In this document: positions 50,725-56,477 of the stretch, one piece after another
Layout of the letters: each line of letters starts with the position of its first letter
Position numbering within the stretch: position 1 is the stretch's first letter
NCBI RefSeq assembly: GCF_009753715.1
Contig: NZ_WQMS01000008.1
Span: 109,173-173,172, forward strand
Direction: 5' to 3'
DNA length: 64,000 nucleotides
Source of the DNA: Sphingomonas horti
Lineage (GTDB): Bacteria > Pseudomonadota > Alphaproteobacteria > Sphingomonadales > Sphingomonadaceae
The notes under the pieces: generated by a model
The model's input: only the letters and a program-made list of their open reading frames with translations
Told to the model about the DNA's origin: nothing
Database searches by the model: none
Translations under genes and position numbers: made by a program

Positions 50725-50858
50725 TCTTGGGCGGCTCGCCAGGCGCGCATGGTCGGGGCGGGCTCCCTGCTTGCAATTACTGCGCTGACAGGCTGCTCCA
50801 TTCCTGAACGTGTGAACCAAATGGGTGAAAATGTCTTGACATCGTGACGATGATCTGG

Positions 50859-50867
50859 CACTAGATC
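50859..50867. repeat. Target-site duplication, left copy
   Basis: CACTAGATC directly before the left end of the IS1595-type element. An identical 9-mer is at 53119-53127, beside the right end. IS1595-family elements duplicate about 8 bp, so the pair fits a single transposition of the whole unit. Confidence 0.8.
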
Positions 50868-50935
50868 CGCGATTATGTAGTTTACAAACCCAGCGGTTGA
50901 GGATATAAGAGGCCCATCAACTAAGGGTTCTCACC

Positions 50936-51889
50936 ATGTCGGTTCTTTCCTCTCCCCACTTCCACGACGAAGCTAAGGCTTTCGCATTTCTGGAGAGCAT
51001 CGTTTGGGCCGATGGGGTTGTTTGCCCGCATTGCGGTGTTGTCGGTGGCCGCGTGTATGACCTGTCCGGCGTTCGCTCCAAGCCGAGCCTGAAGAACCCG
51101 GAAGGCGTCGTTCGCCACGGCCTGAAAAAGTGTGGCGAGTGCCGCAAGCAGTTCACGGTCAAGGTTGGCACCGTGTTCGAGCATGCCCGCATGCCGCTCC
51201 ATAAGATGCTCCAAGCCGTGCACCTGATCGTGTCCAGCAAGAAGGGCATCAGCGCCCATCAACTCAGCCGCGTGCTGGAGGTTCAGTACAAGTCGGCCTG
51301 GTTCCTGGCGCACCGCATCCGCGAAGCCATGCGTTCCGGTGATCTTGCTCCGTTCGGTTCGGGCGGCGGCGCTGTCGAGGTGGACGAGACCTATTTCGGT
51401 GTGAAGCAGGGCCGCACGCGCAACACTGGCGGCGGCCATGCTCACAAGTTCGGCGTGCTGGCGCTGGTCGATCGCGACACCCGCACGATGCGCACCTTCA
51501 CCTTTGACCGCTTCAAGGCGGAAGAGGTTCACCCGATCGTCCGCGCCAACATCAGCCGCGAAGCCCGCCTGATGACGGACGAAGCCCGCATGTATTCCAA
51601 GATCGGCAAGGAGTTTGCCGAGCATGGCACGACGCTTCACGGCATCAAGCAGTTCGTGGATTATGGCGATCGCACCATTCACACGAACACGGTCGAGGGC
51701 GCGTTCTCGATCTTCAAGCGCGGCATGAAGGGCGTCTATCAGCACTGTGGCGAGCAGCACCTGCACCGCTACCTCGCCGAGTTCGAGTTCCGCTACAACA
51801 ACCGGGTTGCGAACGGGGTTGATGACCGCCAGCGTGCCCGCAATGCCGTAAGGGGCATCATTGGCAAGCGCCTAACCTACGCGGCTTAG
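50936..51889 (+). CDS. IS1595 family (ISXO2-like) transposase
   Basis: A 317-residue transposase. An N-terminal zinc ribbon (CPHCG at about 30-34, CGEC at about 66-69) precedes the ISXO2-like DDE domain with VEVDETYFGVKQG, LMTDEARMYSKIG and NTVEGAFSIFKRGMKGVYQH, which carry the expected catalytic acids. It is complete with no frameshift, so the element could be active. The upstream TTGACA at about 50835 lies outside the element; the true promoter is unclear. Codon use is less GC-biased than the surrounding chromosome. Confidence 0.93.
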   Translation: MSVLSSPHFHDEAKAFAFLESIVWADGVVCPHCGVVGGRVYDLSGVRSKPSLKNPEGVVRHGLKKCGECRKQFTVKVGTVFEHARMPLHKMLQAVHLIVSSKKGISAHQLSRVLEVQYKSAWFLAHRIREAMRSGDLAPFGSGGGAVEVDETYFGVKQGRTRNTGGGHAHKFGVLALVDRDTRTMRTFTFDRFKAEEVHPIVRANISREARLMTDEARMYSKIGKEFAEHGTTLHGIKQFVDYGDRTIHTNTVEGAFSIFKRGMKGVYQHCGEQHLHRYLAEFEFRYNNRVANGVDDRQRARNAVRGIIGKRLTYAA

Positions 51890-52008
51890 TAAGGGCGGAA
51901 TTGCGTCAGGCGCGCAAAGCGTCAGTTTTGATTAGGAATTGCGGGTCTACTATGCTTTTCCTTCGTTGGAAGCGAAGGAAACGCCCCGGGAAGGCTCCAG
52001 CGATTCCG

Positions 52009-52036
52009 AGCCCCAGACGCCAAGCGTCTGGGGCTT
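52009..52036. terminator. Bidirectional terminator between transposase and winged-helix gene
   Basis: AGCCCCAGACGC-CAA-GCGTCTGGGGCT, a perfect 12-bp stem with a 3-nt loop followed by TTCT. It separates two convergent genes inside the mobile element. A second hairpin, TTCCTTCG/CGAAGGAA, is at 51958-51980. Confidence 0.85.
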
Positions 52037-52037
52037 T

Positions 52038-52451
52038 CTAGTTCACCCGCAGACTGCTCGCTACCTCTGTCACACGCTGCTCGACCCGATCCTTGGCATA
52101 TCGAATGTCATAGTATCGGTCACCATCGCGAAGTAGTGCGCCGTCTGCTTTTAGCCTCGATAGTAGCGAAGTAACTGTGGCCGGTGCCACGTTAGGAGAC
52201 TCCACTTTGGCCAGTGCCACTACTTCGGCGGCCGTGGCGCCAAGGAAGCCAGCGCGCTGCATGATATCAAGAACAAGTGGCTTAACGTTTGTAAGACGCT
52301 TCTTAGCGCTGGGCTCCTCCATCTTCTCCCCAGAGAAAGCGGCCTGAATCCTAACAAGGGCCGCCTCCTCTACGCGGAGTCGCTCGATTTCCGTTCGGAT
52401 ACGAGCGAGCTCCTGTGCTAATGTTTCTAGCATGTCGCTCGCTTTCGCCAT
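52038..52451 (-). CDS. Coiled-coil and winged-helix DNA-binding-type protein (mobile-element passenger)
   Basis: A 137-residue protein with an N-terminal coiled coil (MAKASDMLETLAQELARIRT, then EIERLRVEEAALVRIQAAF) and a C-terminal winged helix (LGATAAEVVALAKVESPNVA followed by PATVTSLLSRLKADGALLRD and GDRYYDI). It has no catalytic motif. AGAGG lies 7 nt upstream of the ATG. It begins 32 bp after the 3' end of the odd tRNA on the same strand and may be co-transcribed with it. It is probably a DNA-binding regulator for the element or the tRNA. Confidence 0.72.
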   Translation of the reverse strand: MAKASDMLETLAQELARIRTEIERLRVEEAALVRIQAAFSGEKMEEPSAKKRLTNVKPLVLDIMQRAGFLGATAAEVVALAKVESPNVAPATVTSLLSRLKADGALLRDGDRYYDIRYAKDRVEQRVTEVASSLRVN

Positions 52452-52482
52452 GTCTGATCCTCTTGGTTGCGAAGGAAAGCCG

Positions 52483-52567
52483 TACCCCCGACAGGACTCG
52501 AACCTGCACGCCCCGGGAAGGACTTCGGTTTTAAAGACCGCTGCGTCTACCATTCCGCCACGGGGGC
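52483..52567 (-). tRNA. Class II (Leu-like) tRNA with anticodon TTA, no encoded CCA
   Basis: Read on the minus strand it starts GCCCCCG and ends CGGGGGT with discriminator A. The D-arm GTGGCGGAATGGTAGACGC is leucine-like, the T-arm is GCAGG-TTCGAGT-CCTGT and there is a long variable arm. The anticodon arm reads GCGGT-CTTTAAA-ACCGA, so positions 34-36 are TTA, complementary to the stop codon UAA. Pair 27-43 is a G-A mismatch and pair 1-72 is G-U. After the discriminator come C-G-G instead of CCA. It could be an ochre-suppressor-type tRNA, a decaying tRNA-Leu(TAA), or a tRNA-like regulatory RNA. Confidence 0.75.
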
Positions 52568-52634
52568 ACAGGCAGGGTGTGACTCGTTTTGCGCCGGTTT
52601 GCGAGTCGGGAATGGCGCAACGTACGCAAAATGA

Positions 52635-52643
52635 TGTGGATAA
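52635..52643 (-). promoter_or_regulatory. DnaA box 1 in the mobile element
   Basis: TGTGGATAA, the exact complement of the consensus DnaA box TTATCCACA. A second perfect copy is 28 bp away. Confidence 0.5.
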
Positions 52644-52662
52644 CCCTGTGCGGGAGATTCTG

Positions 52663-52671
52663 TGTGGATAA
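52663..52671 (-). promoter_or_regulatory. DnaA box 2 in the mobile element
   Basis: A second TGTGGATAA in the same orientation, overlapping the start codon of the 47-aa ORF at 52664. Two perfect boxes in 37 bp are unlikely to be pure chance, though the ORF itself fixes part of the second. Confidence 0.45.
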
Positions 52672-52807
52672 GGCTGTGAATAGCGGGGGTCAGCTCGACA
52701 AGTTCAAGGAAGCCGCTCGCCAGCTAGAGACGGACGACGATCCGGAGCGCTTCAAGGACAGGCTCAAGAAGCTGGTGAAGCATAAGCCGGTGGAGAAGCC
52801 GGAGTGA
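52664..52807 (+). CDS. 47-aa charged small protein (passenger)
   Basis: GTG start at 52664, product VDKAVNSGGQLDKFKEAARQ then LETDDDPERFKDRLKKLVKHKPVEKPE. It is a highly charged helical protein with no membrane segment. It resembles small Lys/Glu-rich hypothetical proteins found in phages and mobile elements of this group, as far as I can recall. Its TGA overlaps the GTG of the next ORF (GTGA), which supports both being translated. No ribosome-binding site is obvious. Confidence 0.6.
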   Translation: MDKAVNSGGQLDKFKEAARQLETDDDPERFKDRLKKLVKHKPVEKPE

Positions 52808-52938
52808 GCACGTTCGAGCTTCTGATTGCCGGATCGCTTGTCACCATTGCGGCTAGTCACCTGGCTATCGCCGGCAGGCTTGCCGCGCTCCAGCGTGATA
52901 TTGCTGAAATCTGGAAGCGCATGCCACGCATAGATTAG
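52804..52938 (+). CDS. 44-aa single-pass membrane protein (passenger)
   Basis: GTG start at 52804 in a four-base overlap with the upstream ORF. The product has a hydrophobic segment MSTFELLIAGSLVTIAASHL then AIAGRLAALQRDIAEIWKRM and ends PRID. One N-terminal TM and an amphipathic C-terminal helix, a layout seen in small phage or element membrane proteins. Function unknown. Confidence 0.5.
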   Translation: MSTFELLIAGSLVTIAASHLAIAGRLAALQRDIAEIWKRMPRID

Positions 52939-52979
52939 TGGGCTGTCCTACATACCCGCCGCTGTGCTTACGGTCGCGC

Positions 52980-53105
52980 ATGGATCGAGAGCCGGATTGG
53001 AAAGCGCGCGCGGTTGCGCTGGAGTGGTGGACGGCCACGGCGATCGTCGCGGGAGCGTTGATCTATGGGGTCGTTTCAGCAGCCATCGCGCTGTTGGGTG
53101 TGTAA
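52980..53105 (+). CDS. 41-aa single-pass membrane protein, ending inside the right terminal repeat
   Basis: ATG at 52980, product MDREPDWKARAVALEWWTAT then AIVAGALIYGVVSAAIALLGV. One TM near the C-terminus. The stop codon TAA lies inside the right inverted end of the element, so the ORF belongs to it. No clear ribosome-binding site. Function unknown; it might be a toxin-like or stabilising peptide, but nothing shows this. Confidence 0.45.
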   Translation: MDREPDWKARAVALEWWTATAIVAGALIYGVVSAAIALLGV

Positions 53106-53118
53106 ACTACATAAACGC

Positions 53119-53127
53119 CACTAGATC
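53119..53127. repeat. Target-site duplication, right copy
   Basis: CACTAGATC, identical to 50859-50867, directly after the right end of the IS1595-type element. Confidence 0.8.
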
Positions 53128-53486: not shown

Positions 53487-54614
53487 ATGAAATGGTTCGG
53501 GAAGAAGGCCGCGCGCGGCAGTGCGCGGCCGGCGCTGGCGCGCGGGTTCGGGATGGCGTTCGGGAGCGGCGAATGGCCGCGATCCTATGAAGCGCAGGTG
53601 CGCGATGCCTATGCCCTGAACCCGGTGGCGCAACGGGCGGTGCGGCTGGTGGCGGAAAGCGTCGGTTCGGCGCCGATCGCCTGTTCCGAACCCGAGGTGG
53701 CGCGGCTGATCGCGGCGCAGTCGGGCGGCCAAGGACTGGTCGAGACGGTCGCATCGCACCTGCTGCTGCAAGGAAATGCCTATGTGGAGGTGCTGACGGG
53801 CCGGTCCCTGGATACGCGCCTCTCGACTTCGCTCGCAGCGAACGGAGAAGAAGTAGCCGAACTCTTTGCCTTGCGGCCAGATCGGGTCTCGATCGAGGCG
53901 GACGTGCGCGGGTGGCCAGGCGCCTATCTGTACCGCGTCGGCGAGGTGACGCAGCGAGTCGAGCCGGAGCGGCTGGTGCATGTGCGGACGTTTCACCCGA
54001 CCGACGATCATTACGGGCTCGGCTGCCTCGGCGCCGCGGCGGGCGCCGTGGCGATCCACAACGCGGCGACGCGGTGGAACAAGGGATTGCTGGACAATGC
54101 GGCGCGGCCGAGCGGGGCGCTGGTGTACGAGCCGCAGGACGGGTCCAATCTCTCGCCGGAGCAGTTCGAGCGGCTGAAGGCGGAGCTGGAAGCGAGCTTC
54201 CAGGGCGCGGGCAATGCGGGCCGGCCATTGCTGCTGGACGGCGGTCTTCGATGGCAGGCGCTGAGCCTGACGCCCGCGGACATGGATTTCGTGTCGCTCA
54301 AAGCGGCCGCCGCGCGCGAGATCGCGCTGGCATTCGGCGTGCCGCCGATGCTGCTCGGCCTGCCCGGCGACAACACATACGCGAATTATCGCGAGGCGAA
54401 CCGGTCGCTGTGGCGGCTGACGATCCTGCCGCTCGCCGCCAAGATTTACGGCGCGCTGGCGCAGGGACTGGCGCCGTGGTGGCCGGGCGTGACGGTCGCC
54501 GTCGATGTCGACCGGGTCCCCGAGCTGAGCGAGGATCGGGAGCGGCTGTGGGCGATGGTGTCGGGCGCGGATTTCCTGTCGCCCGAGGAAAAGCGGACGA
54601 CGGTGGGATTGTAG
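53487..54614 (+). CDS. GTA/HK97-type portal protein
   Basis: A 375-residue portal protein of HK97 type, equivalent to RcGTA g3, forming the dodecameric DNA channel at the capsid vertex. AYALNPVAQRAVRLVAESVG, HLLLQGNAYVEV, LRPDRVSIEADV and FGVPPMLLGLPGDNTYANYREAN are typical. It is shorter than tailed-phage portals, as in GTAs. Residues about 109-123 (RSLDTRLSTSLAANG) seem to be encoded by a dispersed repeat inserted in frame. It is the first gene of the cluster, with no terminase upstream. Confidence 0.92.
   Translation: MKWFGKKAARGSARPALARGFGMAFGSGEWPRSYEAQVRDAYALNPVAQRAVRLVAESVGSAPIACSEPEVARLIAAQSGGQGLVETVASHLLLQGNAYVEVLTGRSLDTRLSTSLAANGEEVAELFALRPDRVSIEADVRGWPGAYLYRVGEVTQRVEPERLVHVRTFHPTDDHYGLGCLGAAAGAVAIHNAATRWNKGLLDNAARPSGALVYEPQDGSNLSPEQFERLKAELEASFQGAGNAGRPLLLDGGLRWQALSLTPADMDFVSLKAAAAREIALAFGVPPMLLGLPGDNTYANYREANRSLWRLTILPLAAKIYGALAQGLAPWWPGVTVAVDVDRVPELSEDRERLWAMVSGADFLSPEEKRTTVGL
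53816..53850. repeat. Half-copy of repeat family B inside the portal gene
   Basis: GCGCCTCTCGACTTCGCTC followed by GCAGCGAACGGAG. The first 19 bases match the right arm of the family B element (GCGCCCCTCGACTTCGC-) at 14050-14066. It is in frame and contributes RLSTSLAANG to the protein. Confidence 0.6.
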
Positions 54615-54670
54615 TTCGCGCGAAGACGCGAAGAGTGATCGGTTCGCGCGAACCAGATGGAGACAGGCTG

Positions 54671-54979
54671 ATGTCTCAGGACACGATGCTCGCTGCGCTG
54701 CTGGCGCAGGCGGAGAGCGAAGGCGCCTTGCGCGCGACGCTGCGCGGGCTGGTCGAGGAGGCGTCGGAGCTCGGGGCGCGGCGGGCGCTCGCGTCGCTGG
54801 GGCTGGAGGATGCCGCCGCGGGCAAGGACATGCGCGAGCTGCGCGACCTGCTGGGCGCCTGGCGTGACGCCAAGAAGTCGGCGGTGCAGGCGGTCGCGGG
54901 CTGGTTCGTGCGGCTGCTGCTGGCGCTGATGGTGGTCGGGATCTCGGTGAAGACCGGCCTGTGGGCGCGGCTTTCGTGA
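54671..54979 (+). CDS. DUF6127-like GTA small membrane protein
   Basis: A 102-residue protein with a helical N-terminus (AALLAQAESEGALRATLRGLVEEASELGARRALASLGLE), RDLLGAWRDAKKSA and one C-terminal TM (WFVRLLLALMVVGISVKTGLW). This matches the small gene found between portal and protease in sphingomonad GTA clusters (DUF6127 type, equivalent in position to RcGTA g3.5). The stop overlaps the protease start (TGATG). Its role is unknown, perhaps head assembly at the membrane. Confidence 0.8.
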   Translation: MSQDTMLAALLAQAESEGALRATLRGLVEEASELGARRALASLGLEDAAAGKDMRELRDLLGAWRDAKKSAVQAVAGWFVRLLLALMVVGISVKTGLWARLS

Positions 54980-55332
54980 TGCGGTTCGCGGGCTATGCGG
55001 CCGTGTTCGACCGGCCCGATCGCGGCGGCGACGTGATCCGGGCGGGAGCATTCGCTTCCGCGCGCGGCGCGGTGCCGCTGCTGTGGGAGCATGGCGGGCC
55101 GGCGGGCTCGGTCGAGCGGATCGAGGAGGATGCGCGCGGGCTGCGCGTGATCGGGGCCGCCGAACGCGAGCTTCGGCCCGGCATGGGCTTGTCGATCGGG
55201 TACCGGGTCCGGGCTGCACGCGACCTGCCGCGCGGACGCGAGCTGCTCGACCTGGAGCTGCTGGAAGTGAGCCTGGTGCGGTTCCCGATGCAGCCGCTGG
55301 CGCGGGTGCTTGCGGTGGAGGCGCGGCGCTGA
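54979..55332 (+). CDS. HK97 family prohead protease (GTA g4)
   Basis: A 117-residue prohead protease, small for the family but complete. RFAGYAAVFDRPDRGGDVIRAGAF opens it; the catalytic His is in PLLWEHGGPAGS (about residue 38) and the Ser in GLSIGYRV (about 73). It would process the scaffold and capsid N-terminus. The ATG at 54979 overlaps the preceding stop by one base. Confidence 0.9.
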   Translation: MRFAGYAAVFDRPDRGGDVIRAGAFASARGAVPLLWEHGGPAGSVERIEEDARGLRVIGAAERELRPGMGLSIGYRVRAARDLPRGRELLDLELLEVSLVRFPMQPLARVLAVEARR

Positions 55333-55396
55333 CGCGCCGCACCCCTCACCCCGCTCAGCTTCGCTGAGTCGCCCTCTCCCGCAAAGGGAGAGGGGC
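55332..55396. repeat. Family A repeat between GTA protease and capsid
   Basis: CCCCTCACCCCGCTCAG with CTTCGCTGAG and CCCTCTCCC-GCAAA-GGGAGAGGGG. It is almost identical to the right part of the 516-655 element and lies just upstream of the capsid ribosome-binding site, so it may affect capsid expression. Confidence 0.75.
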
Positions 55397-55418
55397 ATTT
55401 TTGAAGCAGGAGAAAGCG

Positions 55419-56477
55419 ATGGAACAGGTGACGGGCTCGCTGGAGGCGAGTTTCGAGACGGTGACGCATGCGCCGGCTATGGAGCGGCCGGCCTTGTCGG
55501 GGGCGCGCGTGAGCGGCTCTCGGGAAGCGTTCGTCGACGGGTATCTGCGGCGCGGCTCCGAAATCGAGCTGAAGAGCTTTACCGGCGCGGTCGCCGGCGA
55601 CGGCGGCTATGCGGTGCCGAAGGAGATCGACGCGGTCATCGACCGGACACTGACGGCGATCTCGCCGATCCGCCGGATCGCTAATGTGGTTCGTGTCGGC
55701 TCCGCCGGCTATCGCAAACTGGTGACGACCGGCGGCACGCCTTCGGGCTGGGCGTCGGAGACCGGGACGCGGGCGGAGACGGCGACGCCGAGCTTCAAGG
55801 AAATCGCGCCGCCGATGGGCGAGTTGTTCGCCAACCCGGCCGCGAGCCAGGCGATGCTGGACGATGCGGCGTTCGACGTCGAGGGCTGGCTGGCGGGCGA
55901 GATCGCGACCGAGTTCGCGCGCGCCGAGGGGGCGGCGTTTGTCTCCGGCGATGGCGTGAACAAGCCCATGGGTTTCCTGACCGGCACGCCGACCGATGAG
56001 CCGGACGACGAGCGGGCGTTCGGGACGCTTCAGTATCTGGCGACCGGCGCTGCCGGTGCGTTCCCGGCGTCGAGCCCGCAGGACAAATTGATCGACCTGA
56101 TCCAGTCGCTACGCACGCCTTATCGGCAGGGCGCCGCGTTCGTGATGAACTCGGCGACGCTGGCGCGCATCCGCAAGTTCAAGACCGCGGACGGCGCCTT
56201 TCTGTGGCAGCCGGCGATGGCGAGCGGCCAGCCGGACACGCTGCTCGGCTATCCGGTCGTGGAGGCCGAGGACATGCCGGACATCGCCGCCGACAGCTTC
56301 TCGATCGCGTTCGGCAATTTCCGTGCCGGCTATCTGATCGCGGAGCGGAGCGAGACGAGCATCCTGCGCGATCCGTTCACCCACAAGCCGTTCGTCCATT
56401 TCTACGCGGTCAAGCGGATCGGCGGCGCGGTGACCAACGCCGAAGCGATCAAGCTGCTGAAGTTCGCCGCGAGCTGA
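55419..56477 (+). CDS. HK97-fold major capsid protein (GTA g5)
   Basis: A 352-residue major capsid protein. GAVAGDGGYAVPKEIDAVID is the classic start of the mature HK97-type coat, followed by RKLVTTGGTPSGWASETG, LFANPAASQAMLDDAAFD and the C-terminal HFYAVKRIGGAVTNAEAIKLL. The ATG 55419 has an AGGAGA ribosome-binding site; an in-frame TTG at 55401 lies in the repeat-adjacent region and is less likely. It builds the small GTA head that packages random host DNA. Confidence 0.94.
   Translation: MEQVTGSLEASFETVTHAPAMERPALSGARVSGSREAFVDGYLRRGSEIELKSFTGAVAGDGGYAVPKEIDAVIDRTLTAISPIRRIANVVRVGSAGYRKLVTTGGTPSGWASETGTRAETATPSFKEIAPPMGELFANPAASQAMLDDAAFDVEGWLAGEIATEFARAEGAAFVSGDGVNKPMGFLTGTPTDEPDDERAFGTLQYLATGAAGAFPASSPQDKLIDLIQSLRTPYRQGAAFVMNSATLARIRKFKTADGAFLWQPAMASGQPDTLLGYPVVEAEDMPDIAADSFSIAFGNFRAGYLIAERSETSILRDPFTHKPFVHFYAVKRIGGAVTNAEAIKLLKFAAS

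Follow-up and report, generated by a model that had tools for sequence, protein, structure and literature searches.

A leucine-type tRNA with a stop-reading anticodon in an IS1595 element of Sphingomonas horti points to a putative RNA-controlled mistranslation module

Type VIII toxin-antitoxin modules such as SdsR/RyeA and CreTA are RNA-RNA systems, and RNA-OUT of IS10 is a case of antisense control of an insertion sequence. The tRNAs called allo-tRNAs (Mukai 2017) have, according to a review, a Ser-type body with mostly non-Ser anticodons corresponding to 35 of the 64 codons, and UAA is among those of the 9/3 type (PMC7609411). Furthermore, leucyl- and seryl-tRNA synthetases (LeuRS and SerRS) recognize the variable arm, so that the anticodon can be changed (PMC7373986). 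Here we describe a tRNA gene in a stretch of 64,000 nucleotides (nt) from Sphingomonas horti (contig NZ_WQMS01000008.1, positions 109,173 to 173,172; hereafter the window), which is carried by an element of the IS1595 family and has a leucine-type body and the anticodon UUA. Its recurrent companions are a winged-helix open reading frame (ORF) and a short stretch that is antisense to its own variable arm, and the comparison of sequences suggests that these parts form a mistranslation module of a new kind, which would be controlled by RNA.

The tRNA and the element that carries it

The gene at 52482-52567 on the minus strand is assigned as tRNA-Stop(TTA) by ARAGORN, and the Rfam covariance model RF00005 matches it above the gathering score (55.8 bits, cut-off 29, E 2.5e-9) with a full cloverleaf. 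A preliminary description of the window, made from its letters alone, had read a cloverleaf with a Leu-type D arm at this site, and had placed the anticodon as TTA and not as TAA; both programs find a complete tRNA there. The RF00005 alignment gives CUUUAAA as the anticodon loop, and hence UUA as the anticodon, by which UAA is ruled out. The UUA anticodon would read UAA, and also UAG by wobble, and the gene has the stop-complementary anticodon of a nonsense suppressor. Its leucine isotype is indicated by the Leu-type D arm (read directly), the long variable arm and A73, and the nearest relatives among the tRNAs of its own genome, a comparison that the preliminary description had proposed, are tRNA-Leu. 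Only one copy of the UUA tRNA is present among 44 tRNA matches in that genome. The 27-43 mismatch, which is G-A, and the lack of an encoded CCA had been pointed out before and are both real.

The surrounding transposable element, also recognized in the preliminary description, is 2,252 bp long and is bounded by an inverted repeat (50869-50892/53095-53118, 92%) and by 8-bp direct repeats, which is the typical length of target duplication in the IS1595 family. Its transposase has the DDE domain and the zinc ribbon of this family (Pfam matches PF12762, E 1.6e-33, and PF12760, E 4.6e-11). The window tRNA is therefore a tRNA with a stop-reading anticodon in a mobile element. The features discussed below are as follows (window positions):

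50860-50867, left target-site duplication ACTAGATC, read from the sequence
50868-53119, IS1595-family element, defined by inverted ends and 8-bp direct repeats
50936-51889, plus strand, IS1595 (ISXO2-like) transposase of 317 amino acids (aa) with the end GKRLTYAA-TAG, from Pfam domains
51890-51931, plus strand, possible readthrough tail, suggested by frame reading: second stop TAA, then GRNCVRRAKRQF, then TGA
51928-51956, plus strand, promoter-like pair, -35 TTGATT, 17 nt, -10 TATGCT
51957-52042, plus strand, putative antisense small RNA (5' hairpin, antisense stretch, terminator-like hairpin), from hairpin search and fold
51981-51994, plus strand, 14-nt stretch ACGCCCCGGGAAGG, exact complement of tRNA nt 47-60
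52038-52451, minus strand, predicted coiled-coil and winged-helix protein of 137 aa, starting 30 nt after the tRNA, from alignments and AlphaFold2
52482-52567, minus strand, Leu-type class II tRNA with anticodon UUA
52508-52521, minus strand, variable-arm segment of the tRNA (nt 47-60), complementary to the antisense stretch
52676-52807, plus strand, small ORF of 43 aa containing KFKEAARQLETDDDPERF, a recurrent companion found by tblastn
53120-53127, right target-site duplication ACTAGATC, read from the sequence

Recurrence of the module and of its antisense stretch

Relatives of the transposase were collected from genome contigs, and the best 80 of the 497 confirmed ones were taken for comparison. 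ARAGORN found a UUA tRNA in seven of these 80 (loci L013, L017, L022, L043, L051, L059 and L083), each time about 0.6-0.8 kb past the transposase and on the opposite strand. The transposases of these tRNA-bearing elements are 61-87% identical to that of the window. The preliminary description had advised looking for the tRNA in other copies of the element, and in these relatives it is found again at the corresponding position. Five more loci, L102-L106, came from viral contigs scanned with a DNA pattern, and among them L103-L106 share the neighbouring ORF. The same locus was counted only once (L101 and L107 are apparently L013, and L108, L112, L109 and L115 are L103, L104, L105 and L106, respectively), which leaves 12 distinct loci where the UUA tRNA lies upstream of the same winged-helix ORF family. 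The UUA tRNA is rare, since its pattern was met in 2 of 396 genomes of the order and 1 of 385 of the class, with the window genome counted in both. Moreover, the ORF family stands in six further loci beside Leu-type tRNAs with Pro, Gly or Ala anticodons, that is, UGG (Pro; L110, L111), UCC (Gly; L113, L114), ACC (Gly; L117) and UGC (Ala; L124). In the last case (L124:5044-5380) a distant winged-helix ORF is upstream of two tandem Leu-type UGC tRNAs; the second alone was counted in the comparison of 18 tRNAs, and the first has a 1-72 mismatch.

In these 18 tRNAs the T stem is paired at 5/5 positions throughout, the acceptor stem at 7/7 in 17, and N73 is A in all. CCA is encoded in 14 of them, the exceptions being the window, L113, L114 and L115, and its absence is therefore not a general trait. 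The loop CUUUAAA is invariant in the 12 UUA tRNAs, while the anticodon stem varies with compensation (CGGU/ACCG, CCGU/ACGG, CAGU/ACUG and UGGU/ACCA), and the 27-43 mismatch is kept in 10 of the 12. A decayed or chance tRNA is ruled out by this recurrence at the same relative place and by the compensated stems. Neither of the two outcomes named beforehand as speaking against a stop-reading tRNA, a covariance model with the anticodon TAA or homologues in random decay, was found. The closest isotype is Leu in 15 of 17 tRNAs when they are compared with the 32 tRNAs of the window genome, which served for all modules in place of the tRNAs of their own hosts.

The partner ORF encodes about 130-140 aa where complete, and it is on the same strand as the UUA tRNA and starts 15-30 nt after it in 12 of the 13 UUA loci, the exception without it being L102. 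The AlphaFold2 model of the 137-aa window protein (pLDDT 79.7, pTM 0.48) has a coiled coil and a winged helix. Its matches to winged-helix regulators in Foldseek are weak (best E 0.0016), with none at E <= 0.001, and Pfam gives no family at its cut-off for this member, while PHROG 2440 'transcriptional regulator' is matched by 4 of 11 members of the ORF family (best E 1.4e-4). A defence family was rejected, PADLOC giving marginal matches only (best E 0.021). A stop inside the ORF as target of the tRNA was also rejected, as none occurs in the 12 ORFs read, and the final stops vary (TGA 7, TAA 2, TAG 2 of 11). In the order, the ORF was found in the two genomes (of 396) that also have the pattern of the tRNA; in the class it was found at 8 places in 7 of 385 genomes, and tRNAs of this kind are there, besides the window, only at L117 and L121/L124. 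The plasmid search with the queries from L022 and L051 and the phage search with that from L051 gave no match. In addition, a query from L059 gives tblastn matches to the small ORF beside the tRNA in 10 of 13 UUA loci (best non-self match 91% in L051; window 75%).

The 14-nt stretch ACGCCCCGGGAAGG has no other copy in the window than the tRNA itself, and it pairs over at most 6 nt with the three tRNA-Leu of its own genome that were recovered. A run of 10-16 nt exactly antisense to the module's own variable arm, on the opposite strand and 0.48-0.74 kb off, is present in 15 of 16 modules. The sixteenth, L113, fails in the fixed search region; its match of 11 nt lies 1.5 kb off and precedes a hairpin and a T run. 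L105 was outside the test, being at a contig end. In the fixed region of 430-900 nt, which was chosen after the first matches had been located and is identical for all pairings, the longest runs average 12.6 nt for own pairs against 6.6 nt for mismatched ones. The observed sum was not reached in any of 100,000 shuffles, and runs against other segments of the tRNA or in the sense orientation are 6.1-7.0 nt long on average. The stretch is almost identical in L013, L022 and L103, so that cross-pairings among them reach 12-14 nt, and between L013 and L103 the variable arm and the stretch differ in a matching manner. At the level of sequence, complementarity is thus kept while the sequences change in 15 of 16 modules, as would be expected of an RNA-RNA toxin-antitoxin pair. 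Class II UUA or UCC tRNAs that lack the ORF (L102, L287, L174 and L202/L217, the last two identical) have no 10-nt run antisense to the variable arm within 3 kb. The putative small RNA of the window would end in a terminator-like hairpin (arms 52009-52020/52024-52035). The promoter-like pair before it is the best hexamer pair in 150 nt upstream, ranked by a purpose-made hexamer scoring and not by a standard scan, and transcription from near 51963, the start expected from this pair, would truncate the 5' hairpin in its left arm.

In other searches, the matches of the L013 tRNA were three phage records, annotated as tRNA-Leu in each case, and a single site without annotation in a Streptomyces plasmid, and 35 plasmid records with a related transposase were matched. 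Scans of viral contigs for a Leu-type D arm with a UCC or UUA loop gave 100 and 96 stretches, nearly all of them chance, and 191 new viral loci contained six class II tRNAs with UCC or UUA, two of which were already known (L222 is L113 and L139 is L114). The Leu-type UUA tRNAs at L102:3569-3655 and L287:5619-5708, in viral contigs and without partner ORF, are possibly phage suppressor tRNAs. The neighbours of the modules include a phage integrase (L328, L112), a terminase (L329), RhuM (L327) and a type ISP restriction domain (L110), and in the window phage portal and capsid genes adjoin the element (53487-56477). Close beyond the antisense stretch, five modules have a second, class I tRNA-like gene with a D arm like that of the window tRNA-Arg and odd anticodons (Thr, Ser or Gly by ARAGORN), some anticodon stems being weak by eye:

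L013:5193-5267, minus strand, second tRNA-like gene
L022:1223-1297, minus strand, second tRNA-like gene
L103:1602-1676, minus strand, second tRNA-like gene
L117:676-751, minus strand, second tRNA-like gene
L115:3435-3508, plus strand, second tRNA-like gene

Near the Gly(ACC) module there is a second, disrupted IS1595-type transposase (L129:2015-2866, minus strand), in which the frame shifts near its end. A relative at L009:3934-7587 has a 95% identical transposase with the stop TAA, near-identical ends and the same clpP neighbourhood, another 8-bp repeat and a different cargo (ORFs of 248 and 322 aa without a confident Pfam match). From this comparison, IS1595 elements may exchange the cargo behind GKRLTY. 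The left flanks are similar in two genera (window 50836-50867 and L013:3902-3929, TTGACATCGTxACGxTGATxTGGCAC), a likeness which suggests that this insertion sequence picks a promoter-like target.

Proposed working and alternative explanations

We give about an even chance to the following working: a mobile, antisense-RNA-controlled mistranslating tRNA that would serve as an addiction-type (toxin-antitoxin) module or as an abortive module triggered by phage. Charging of the Leu-type tRNA with Leu in spite of its non-Leu anticodon is inferred from the use of the variable arm by LeuRS, for which the anticodon does not matter. When free, the tRNA would mistranslate, inserting Leu at UAA and UAG here and at Pro, Gly or Ala codons in the sister modules. 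The small RNA from the opposite strand would pair with the variable arm, the part that LeuRS needs, and so keep the tRNA inactive, and the winged-helix protein would regulate the tRNA operon. The mistranslating tRNA would be the toxin and the labile antisense RNA the antitoxin. The variety of anticodons is best explained if the misreading itself is the effect, which favours a role like that of toxin-antitoxin systems. A wider claim is offered more tentatively, namely that there is a class of mobile modules whose effector would be a mistranslating tRNA. Through its anticodon, the Leu-type body would be directed to stop, Pro, Gly or Ala codons; almost every module would have an antisense RNA of its own that fits the variable arm and silences the tRNA, and in IS1595 the tRNA would also be wired to readthrough of the transposase UAG. 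Of the preliminary description, the stop-reading anticodon in a mobile element stands, while the partner ORF, the antisense stretch, the sister modules and the TAG of the transposase had been overlooked.

Several observations weigh against an antisense-controlled mistranslating tRNA. Over the whole length L059 and L083 score higher with tRNA-Met than with tRNA-Leu, and L051 and L115 favour Leu by a narrow margin. A standard scan found no promoter in the element and accepts neither the promoter-like pair nor the terminator hairpin of the putative small RNA in the window. The tandem Ala module L124 has the ORF and the tRNAs and lacks a variable-arm antisense run. In L174, which lacks the ORF, 12 nt at a distance of 386 nt are antisense to the anticodon arm. 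Five distant homologues of the ORF from the class search (L118, L119, L120, L122 and L123) have no tRNA, and the ORF is weakly matched (E 1.8e-6) in L010, an IS1595 relative without the tRNA. Thermodynamic scoring of the duplexes, with internal structure left out of account, ranks the own pair first in only 3 of 16 modules and was set aside as uninformative. Moreover, G-U pairs around the complementary stretches are not enriched (10 of 98 non-matching positions), so that they do not set pairing at the RNA level apart from a shared DNA site. Finally, the module by itself does not account for the TAG bias of the transposase.

This bias is the ground of the main rival, or added role, of the module: the tRNA would be a recoding switch that reads the transposase's own UAG (or UAA) and adds a basic C-terminal tail, the antisense RNA limiting the frequency, a limiting role that frameshifting plays in other insertion sequences. 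The transposases of UUA elements end with TAG in 9 of 10 intact cases, with TAA once (the divergent L115, where TAA is followed by TAA and then TGA) and never with TGA, and the remnant L112 also has TAG. The nine first tested end with LTYxx-TAG, compared with 12 TAG, 41 TAA and 20 TGA in 73 related elements without the tRNA, two of which (L054, L068) have truncated or disrupted transposases (9/9 vs 12/73, Fisher 1e-6; 9/10 vs 12/73 with the later-found L115 added, p 7.6e-6). These nine are scattered over the tree, with nine tRNA changes, at least eight of them forced, and of eight independent tree pairs a mean of 6.9 have the TAG on the side of the tRNA, whereas none has the opposite direction (median p 0.016, 0.008-0.063). 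TAG use also differs from that of the winged-helix ORFs in the same modules (p 0.002). The frame past the stop is rich in Lys and Arg (79 of 282 codons vs 33-50 of 282 in the other five frames; 13 of 305 in the tails of 69 transposases without the tRNA), and the differences between L022 and L043 fall mostly on the third codon position (2, 2, 7). However, the other pairs have no coding signal (all six together 19, 32, 35), the promoter-like sites of the small RNA lie partly in the DNA past the TAG, and the absence of TGA is not significant alone (0/11 vs 20/73, p 0.059). The modules with Pro, Gly and Ala anticodons have no stop to recode, UUA is an odd choice of anticodon for a UAG codon, and the cassette and its TAG may travel together; since the rows are related, the stop statistics are suggestive. 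We consider the recoding switch rather unlikely. In IS1595 elements the TAG of the transposase speaks for recoding, either besides the toxin-antitoxin-like role or in its place.

It is less probable still that the repeated 10-16 nt, instead of belonging to an antisense RNA, are a DNA operator of the winged-helix protein, with one copy in the tRNA gene and another close to a second promoter. Such an operator would suit the predicted regulator, the partly palindromic variable arms, the lack of G-U enrichment and the weak promoters of the small RNA, but the orientation is antisense in 16 of 16 modules with the sense orientation at chance level. Furthermore, in L051 another exact run of 12 nt pairs with the D arm and the anticodon stem; by eye L059, L083, L110 and L112 show the same extra pairing, a short hairpin taking the place of the anticodon arm, and a hairpin and then a T run follow the stretch in, for example, L017, L043, L111, L113 and L114. 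Elements and phages often carry tRNA genes, and the window copy lacks CCA, as might be expected if a tRNA-Leu copy had been picked up as an ordinary passenger and its anticodon had mutated, with no dedicated role. This is contradicted by conservation, as the CUUUAAA loop is invariant and the stems are compensated in 12 loci, and the partner ORF and the matched antisense stretch recur; we regard it as highly improbable.

Relation to described systems

Searches of the open-access literature showed neither a tRNA with an antisense RNA of its own nor a comparable suppressor tRNA carried by an insertion sequence. If the proposed working is true, mobile elements would use codon misreading itself as a weapon or a switch, which would bear on the origin and persistence of nonsense and missense suppressor tRNAs and would also offer small testable parts, namely a suppressor tRNA together with a predicted silencer of it, an RNA that would spare the host tRNA-Leu. 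The element itself is like the ISXO2-like IS1595 family in its transposase domains, inverted ends and 8-bp target duplication, and differs in its cargo of tRNA, winged-helix ORF and antisense stretch. With allo-tRNAs, the module tRNAs would share charging by identity elements and not by the anticodon. However, allo-tRNAs have an 8/4 or 9/3 acceptor branch and Ser identity, and the module tRNAs, being Leu-type with a 7-bp acceptor stem, a 5-bp T stem (7/5) and A73, do not belong to them; unlike allo-tRNAs, they are accompanied by a winged-helix ORF and by an antisense stretch fitted to them. The module would resemble type VIII toxin-antitoxin systems in that both partners would be RNAs and the antitoxin would act by base pairing, and would differ in that the putative toxin is a whole tRNA acting via mistranslation and that a predicted DNA-binding protein is part of the unit. 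As with RNA-OUT of IS10, a short opposite-strand RNA would be encoded in the element, but here it would pair with a tRNA and not with the start of the transposase mRNA.
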